From Pseudomonas lalkuanensis (GTDB lineage Bacteria; Pseudomonadota; Gammaproteobacteria; Pseudomonadales; Pseudomonadaceae): a DNA stretch of 64,000 bases. The position numbers were made by a program, and so were the translations under genes. The notes beneath the pieces were generated by a model. The model was not told where the DNA came from. It was given only the letters and a program-made list of their open reading frames with translations, and made no database searches. The stretch lies in contig NZ_CP043311.1 of NCBI RefSeq assembly GCF_008807375.1, positions 462,501 to 526,500 of the forward strand. Reading direction: 5' to 3'. Positions 43,443 to 45,364 of the stretch are shown one piece after another (the stretch's first letter is position 1; the number at the start of each line of letters is the position of its first letter).

Positions 43443-44093
43443 TCAGGGCTGCAACGAATCCGCCAGGCTCGGATCGTCGATGTAGCGGTTGCGATTGCCC
43501 TGGAGGGCTTCGATGCGGCCGTTGCGGGCGCGTTCCTCGCCATCCACCGGGTCCAGGCGGTTCCACTGCTGGAACATCTGCAGCTGCCCGACGATGGGCA
43601 GGCCGTATTCCGTGTGCATGTAGAAGATCGCCCGCGCCACGTTGCCCTTGGCGGCGTCGCGGGGCTCGACCAGTTGGTACGCGGATTTGAAGTCGCAGTC
43701 GGCCAGCGTACTCTGGCCGCCATCGCCCACGTTGCCGAACAGGGCGTTGCGCCGCGCCAGTTCGATGCGCGACTGGTCCGGGTAGAGGTTGTGCAGGTCG
43801 GAAAGCATGTAGGGATAGTGCGGGTTGGCCGTCTGGCACTGGCTGTCGGTGACGCAGCGAAGGGCGCTCTTGATCTGCTTGGTGCTGTACACCGGGCTGG
43901 CGCTCAGCAGGCCGCCGGGGCTGCTGAAGGCCTTGCCGCAATAGAGAGTGGTGCCGCCGTCGGCATAGAGCTGTTGCCAGAAGGCCTGCTCGACCGCGGC
44001 CTTGGGATCGGCCAGGCGATCCTGGCCACCGGCGAACGCGAAACCGGCGGCAACGGCCGCCAGGCAGGAAAGGGCAGTAAGGACTGGGCGCAT
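43443..44093 (-). CDS. endA: Endonuclease I family nuclease, exported
   Basis: A periplasmic or secreted non-specific DNase of the EndA/NucM family, 216 residues. The signal peptide is MRPVLTALSCLAAVAAGFAF. Catalytic-region motifs DLHNLYPDQ, GNVARAIFYM and FQQWNRLDPVD are present. Several cysteines could form disulfides. ATG 44093 starts the signal peptide. Confidence 0.88.
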   Translation of the reverse strand: MRPVLTALSCLAAVAAGFAFAGGQDRLADPKAAVEQAFWQQLYADGGTTLYCGKAFSSPGGLLSASPVYSTKQIKSALRCVTDSQCQTANPHYPYMLSDLHNLYPDQSRIELARRNALFGNVGDGGQSTLADCDFKSAYQLVEPRDAAKGNVARAIFYMHTEYGLPIVGQLQMFQQWNRLDPVDGEERARNGRIEALQGNRNRYIDDPSLADSLQP

Positions 44094-44247
44094 GGTCTTG
44101 ACCCTGGGACCGCCTTGTCGGGGTCTGTTGTTCTTGTAGGACAAAACGAGTCTAACAAGAGCGCCGTGCGCAAACCAAGACCAACCGATCGCTTGCTTGG
44201 TTGCACCTTCGGTTGCAATAAGATCCCCCGGATTAATCGCTAAATCG

Positions 44248-44265
44248 TGTAAGCATTGGCTTACA
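44248..44265 (+). promoter_or_regulatory. GacA upstream activating sequence of rsmY
   Basis: TGTAAGCATTGGCTTACA is an 18-bp element with 7-bp inverted arms TGTAAGC/GCTTACA. It matches the GacA box TGTAAG-N6-CTTACA known from rsmX/Y/Z promoters. Its centre lies about 65 bases before the inferred RNA start, the usual distance. Confidence 0.95.
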
Positions 44266-44321
44266 AGCGCTGGTGGCTATAGCTCCTTTCGGGGCCATGC
44301 GACCGGGATTAATCTTCACTC

Positions 44322-44443
44322 CATTGGACGTCGCGCAGGAAGCGCACTGAAGAACAGGGATACGCCGGATTTCCGCCAGGATGGCGGTCAGATCAGGGAT
44401 GTCGGGACACAGTCTGCAAAACCTCGCTTCGGCGGGGTTTTTC
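44322..44443 (+). ncRNA. rsmY: Small regulatory RNA RsmY
   Basis: A non-coding RNA of about 120 nt that sequesters the translational repressor RsmA/CsrA under control of GacS/GacA. The sequence shows seven GGA motifs: TTGGACG, CAGGAAG, CAGGGATA, CCGGATTT, CAGGATGG, CAGGGATG and TCGGGACA. The block GCGCAGGAAGCGC is near the 5' end, as in known RsmY. A GacA box lies upstream at 44248, and a final hairpin (AAACCTCGC/GCGGGGTTT, loop TTCG, then a T-rich run) terminates it. The 5' end is inferred from a TAATCT -10-like element at 44310-44315 and may be off by a few bases. Neighbouring genes to the right match the P. aeruginosa rsmY locus (memory). Confidence 0.92.
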
Positions 44444-44448
44444 TTTTT
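44417..44448 (+). terminator. Intrinsic terminator of rsmY
   Basis: Nine-base-pair stem, AAACCTCGC with GCGGGGTTT (one G-T pair), TTCG loop, then TTCTTTTT. The T run lies only on the plus-strand side, which shows the transcript direction. Confidence 0.93.
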
Positions 44449-44464
44449 CTGCATCCCGACAATT

Positions 44465-45364
44465 CTAGAGCAGTGGTTCCTTCGGCCCGATCGCGCCTTC
44501 CAGCAAGGAGCGCAGCAATTCCAGGGTCGCCTGTTGGCGCTGCGCATCGCGAAACACCAATCCCACCTTCAACGGCACCCGTGGCTCGCTCAGCGGCTTC
44601 CACAGCAACCCCTGGTTGGCGTGCATCTGCCTTGCGCGGCCGGGCAGAACGGTGGCCAGCATGGTGTGCGGCAGGCTGTCGAGAATCCCGGCCATATGGT
44701 TCAGCTCCGCCTGTACGTGGGGGCGCCGGCCGAGCAGTGCGAGTTGTTCCTGCCAGATCTGCCGCACGCGGAACTCCTCGCCCAGAAGCAGCATCGGCAG
44801 CTCGGCTGCCTGGCTCAGCGACACCTTCTTGAACTCCTTCAGCGGGTGTTCGTTGGGGATCACCAGCTGCAGCTCGTCTTCGTACAGCAGCAGGCTGTGC
44901 AGCCCCGGCTGGCGCGGCGGCAGGAAGCCGATGCCGATGTCCAGGTTGCCGGTAAGCAGGCGCCGTTCGATATCCAGGCCCGACAGTTCGTAGATCTGCA
45001 CCACCAATTGCGGCTGCGCCTCGCGCAGGCGCTCCAGCAGCATCGGTACCAGCGAAGCATTGACCGTCTGCAGCACGCCGATCGCCAGACTGCGCGGCGA
45101 CTGGCCACGGAACCCGCGCAATGCTTCGCGGACGCGTTCCAGGCCATCCAGCAGCGGCAGGGCGTGGTTGTAGAGGGTATGGGCGGCCAGGGTCGGCAGC
45201 AGGCGCTTGCCGCTGCGCTGGAACAGGCTGACGTCCAGGCCCTGTTCCAGCTGGCGGATCTGCTGCGAAAGCGCGGGTTGCGACAGGCTCAGGCGCTCGG
45301 CGGCGCGCCCCACATGGCCTTCCTCGTAGAGTGCGACGAAGTAGCGAAGCTGGCGAAAATCCAT
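44465..45364 (-). CDS. LysR-type transcriptional regulator
   Basis: A 299-residue regulator. The N-terminal winged helix has GHVGRAAERLSLSQPALSQQI (split here as GHVGRAAERLSL and SQPALSQQI), followed by a periplasmic-binding-protein-like effector domain. It diverges from the MOSC operon, whose start is 104 bases away, so it may control that operon. From memory the P. aeruginosa gene beside rsmY (PA0528) is also a regulator. The effector is unknown. Confidence 0.88.
   Translation of the reverse strand: MDFRQLRYFVALYEEGHVGRAAERLSLSQPALSQQIRQLEQGLDVSLFQRSGKRLLPTLAAHTLYNHALPLLDGLERVREALRGFRGQSPRSLAIGVLQTVNASLVPMLLERLREAQPQLVVQIYELSGLDIERRLLTGNLDIGIGFLPPRQPGLHSLLLYEDELQLVIPNEHPLKEFKKVSLSQAAELPMLLLGEEFRVRQIWQEQLALLGRRPHVQAELNHMAGILDSLPHTMLATVLPGRARQMHANQGLLWKPLSEPRVPLKVGLVFRDAQRQQATLELLRSLLEGAIGPKEPLL

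Follow-up and report, generated by a model that had tools for sequence, protein, structure and literature searches.

The question raised by this locus of Pseudomonas lalkuanensis is whether the interval between an endonuclease I gene and a gene for a LysR-type regulator, within the 64,000-nucleotide stretch of DNA that was analysed (the window), encodes the small RNA RsmY, and which parts of the Gac/Rsm pathway accompany it. In that pathway, GacA that has been phosphorylated by GacS binds its box and switches on the genes of the rsm RNAs, whose GGA motifs then sequester RsmA-family proteins (PMC2375449; PMC11837529). An earlier note, made from the letters of the window, had named RsmY here and had described a 371-base interval that standard protein-gene annotation would leave empty. 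The length is exact (44094–44464) given an ATG start for endonuclease I at 44093, and mechanically called open reading frames cross the gap; the endonuclease I frame extends to a TTG at 44144, and the gap is 320 bases (44145–44464) if that upstream start is used. The features of the locus are the following.

43443–44093, minus strand: upstream neighbour, endonuclease I (PF04231, E 7e-23)
44248–44265, plus strand: GacA box, the upstream activating palindrome TGTAAG-N6-CTTACA, present as the exact TGTAAGCATTGGCTTACA
44310–44315, plus strand: putative -10 element TAATCT, proposed from the sequence
44324–44441, plus strand: rsmY small RNA, limits of the Rfam model (RF00195, 101 bits)
44333–44345, plus strand: predicted GCGC-AGGAA-GCGC hairpin GCGCAGGAAGCGC, presenting GGA (conservation and single-sequence fold)
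44373–44387, plus strand: predicted CCGCC-AGGAT-GGCGG hairpin, presenting GGA (RNAalifold)
44418–44441, plus strand: intrinsic terminator with a 10-pair stem, a TTCG loop and a T-rich tail to about 44448 (terminator scan, fold and conservation)
44465–45364, minus strand: downstream neighbour, LysR-type regulator (PF00126 and PF03466)

The covariance search gave a full-length match to the Rfam RsmY model at 44324–44441, running end to end over model positions 1–121 of 121 and scoring 101 bits where the gathering threshold is 57 (E 4e-23), and this was the sole match above any gathering score in the 64 kb. The note had named the absence of a hit to RsmY models as one ground for refutation, and on that point the search came out in its favour. 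The identification in the earlier note is correct, and the gene is a well-known textbook one. Four other Rfam models (istR, rnk leader, SNORA77, and leucine leader) touched the same stretch and were rejected, all falling below their gathering scores; the istR and rnk leader alignments pass through the rsmY terminator. That the RNA is instead of the rsmX type, or another GGA-rich CsrB-like RNA, is most improbable: the rsmX model RF02144 does match the stretch weakly, at 33.1 bits, a score far under its cut-off of 56, whereas RsmY reaches 101 against 57, and the neighbouring LysR gene also accompanies RsmY in named pseudomonads. RsmX shares with RsmY the nature of a GGA-rich RNA of the Gac/Rsm pathway, as the two papers describe it (PMC2375449; PMC11837529), but differs in having no match above cut-off in the P. 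lalkuanensis genome. The locus at 44324–44441 is almost certainly rsmY, a standard Pseudomonas gene for which activation by GacA and titration of RsmA would be expected from the family, and its transcript would extend from about 44322 to 44446. With the RsmY of other Pseudomonas it shares the full-length model match, the GacA box and its spacing, the GGA hairpins, the terminator, and the LysR neighbour; the P. lalkuanensis copy differs by ordinary substitutions and in nothing substantial. The identification is reinforced by the agreement of the box spacing, the conserved GGA positions, the shared LysR gene, and the trans-acting genes. A scan of the contig collection genome_contigs for a 92-base exact pattern gave no match, and this genome or very near ones may be absent from that collection; the plasmid collection contained no similar DNA at the sensitivity used.

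Each of the elements that the earlier note had read around this RNA was located by the analysis: the consensus GacA box as TGTAAGCATTGGCTTACA, exact at 44248–44265; seven GGA motifs, by count between 44326 and 44407; the GCGCAGGAAGCGC motif at 44333–44345; and the TTCG-loop terminator at 44418–44441, with its T run on the plus strand. The box fits TGTAAGN6CTTACA without mismatch, and no other site in the window comes within two mismatches of it, a level at which shuffled sequences contained a mean of 0.32 sites and at least one site in 28 of 100 cases. It begins 76 nt before the start of the RsmY model, leaving 58 bases between box and model start. Exact boxes number two in the 6.06-Mb genome, one upstream of rsmY and the other upstream of the RsmZ gene, and six further sites carry one mismatch; the reversed control pattern gave no match at one or fewer mismatches. 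Four of these six sites (L007–L010) were read and rejected, the 350 bases that follow having at most five GGA per 120 bases on either strand, compared with eight for rsmY and nine for rsmZ. Downstream of the box, TAAYCT is present in the -10 region of 25 of 30 aligned rsmY loci, and no consensus -35 element goes with TAATCT; a sigma-70 consensus scan of 501 bases around rsmY returned no promoter. A separate palindrome, GATTAATC, has two exact copies in the window (44231 and 44307), both of them in the rsmY promoter region; it was considered as a possible regulator site and set aside, an exact copy upstream of the box being found in just 3 of the 30 loci, source included. Searching the literature for the promoter linker turned up no on-topic paper, as judged by title and abstract.

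The GGA motifs of rsmY lie at 44326, 44338, 44358, 44367, 44379, 44397, and 44405, and two of them have the form ANGGA. Mononucleotide shuffling of the same bases gave at least seven GGA per 118 nt in 62 of 5000 cases, and among 118-nt stretches from both strands of the window, those of rsmY itself included, 5 of 2166 reached this number. The count by itself is therefore only mildly unusual, and the weight rests on the model match and on the conservation of the GGA positions. Two of the motifs sit in conserved predicted hairpin loops. In the first hairpin, none of the four GCGC/GCGC stem pairs varies among the 30 aligned sequences, which makes this stem uninformative by covariation. In the central hairpin (44373–44387), four of the five pairs have at least one sequence changed on both sides with pairing kept (RNAalifold), and four of the five are broken in one sequence each among the 30 aligned. 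Over the whole alignment fold of 22 pairs, breaks or gaps affect any one pair in at most 2 of the 30 sequences; covariation contributes little to the energy (-1.19 of -31.23 kcal/mol; RNAalifold, 30 sequences). The single-sequence fold of rsmY is moderately stable, with a z of -2.2 and 4 of 200 shuffles as good. The terminator is also conserved, and two of its stem pairs have both sides changed with pairing kept; the terminator scan is weak by itself, with one terminator-like site in the 501 bases scanned against a shuffle mean of 0.6. It is scarcely conceivable that rsmY is a decayed, nonfunctional remnant, since the box, the -10-like element, the GGA motifs, the hairpins, and the terminator are all intact, and the copy is nearly identical to those of its closest relatives.

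RsmY was found above the cut-off in 30 of 57 genomes searched. All 18 genomes of the genus (source included) have it, as do 12 of 18 from elsewhere in the family, and none of 21 from elsewhere in the order does; among control genomes, a weak RsmY signal was seen in 2 of 14 and never above the cut-off. A GacA box lies 75–79 nt before the RNA start in 28 of the 30 loci (source included), without mismatch in 22 and with one mismatch in 6, and at the remaining two (L037 and L039) no box with one or fewer mismatches was found at that distance. The number of GGA motifs is seven or eight in 28 of the 30, with six in L036 and five in L037. In flanks of about 1.5 kb, shorter in some, a relative of the LysR gene accompanies 20 of the 30 loci and a relative of the endonuclease I gene 16, the source included in both. 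A LysR protein search of genome_contigs found a relative encoded at 397 loci, and the best 80 were kept. Among these best 80 of 397, the GCGC-GGA hairpin pattern is present at 66 loci and the hairpin together with a box 60–120 bases upstream at 49; the other 31 of the best 80 fail this pattern, which is strict enough to pass over divergent copies and cut contigs. Of the 49 loci, 45 have the hairpin no more than about 500 bases from the LysR stop, and in the other four (L068, L073, L074, and L077) the distance is about 1.7 kb. Eight loci chosen from the best 80 for having the hairpin were scanned with Rfam, and all eight contain RsmY above the cut-off, that of P. aeruginosa PA7 scoring 108.6 bits. 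The two sets are not independent, at least 10 of the 30 loci being the same records as in the LysR-derived 80. The genomic position is shared, in that named Pseudomonas records, P. aeruginosa PA7 included, have RsmY near the same LysR gene, and the LysR neighbour is 99% identical to that of Pseudomonas sp. BN411.

Some loci show other arrangements. At the Azotobacter loci L095, L096, and L122, two or three GGA hairpins of the RsmY type lie close to the same LysR gene, and another genome (G033) has three RsmY matches side by side, one of them above the cut-off (L039, G033:C25:2715-3050). A contig of 3.8 kb (L112), recorded as Mycobacterium sp. MBM, encodes a LysR protein 80% identical to the one next to rsmY in P. 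lalkuanensis, and is perhaps contamination of that assembly.

Other parts of the pathway are present in the same genome. The Rsm RNA families searched were the three RF00195, RF00166, and RF02144. RsmZ (RF00166) was found at G000:C1:4713531-4713664 (-) with 105 bits; like rsmY, RsmZ/PrrB is rich in GGA and preceded by an exact GacA box, and it differs as a separate gene and family with 173 bases from box to model as against 58. Weak second matches to RsmY (28.8 bits) and RsmZ (28.1 bits) were re-scanned (L002 and L004) and rejected, nothing at either locus passing any gathering score. The gene for a GacA-type regulator is present, above its cut-off (313 bits against 280), and the frame after it is UvrC-like. 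The best GacS/BarA-type kinase scores 823 bits, below the model cut-off of 890; the model is built on the enterobacterial BarA. RsmA/CsrA is represented by a 90.9-bit match, and among solved structures this protein hits CsrA-family chains with a best E of 4e-35. A second CsrA match is weak, at 26.5 bits against a cut-off of 27 (G000:C1:5343002-5343094 (+); L042:1408-1614), and matches the solved chains of RsmF and RsmN (E about 1e-4), which are outranked by three designed ankyrin-repeat proteins through summed weak repeats, no single stretch of which passes. The short protein near 5343002 is likely RsmF/RsmN-like and a second Rsm protein besides RsmA. For P. putida, PMC11837529 gives only RsmY and RsmZ, which is the same set as that found here above cut-off in the three families searched.

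The proposed course of events follows the family. The palindrome at 44248–44265 would be bound by phosphorylated GacA, and a promoter starting near 44322 would thereby be activated, giving an RNA of about 120 nt that ends at the terminator. The GGA motifs in the hairpin loops and single-stranded stretches would then bind RsmA, and perhaps also the RsmF/RsmN-like protein; RsmA would leave its target mRNAs, and translation of the targets would resume. The start site, the transcription of rsmY, its dependence on GacA, and its titration of RsmA are all inferred from the family. A broader proposal, offered tentatively and held at somewhat less than even confidence, is that RsmY titrates both RsmA and a divergent RsmF/RsmN-like protein, with RsmY and RsmZ as the sole RNAs above cut-off in the three families.

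The rsmY result aids annotation and leaves the field unchanged, and the two-protein titration, if true, would vary a known arrangement and involve no new mechanism. For P. lalkuanensis, the finding locates the Gac/Rsm switch in the genome, the sole two exact GacA boxes of which stand upstream of rsmY and rsmZ.
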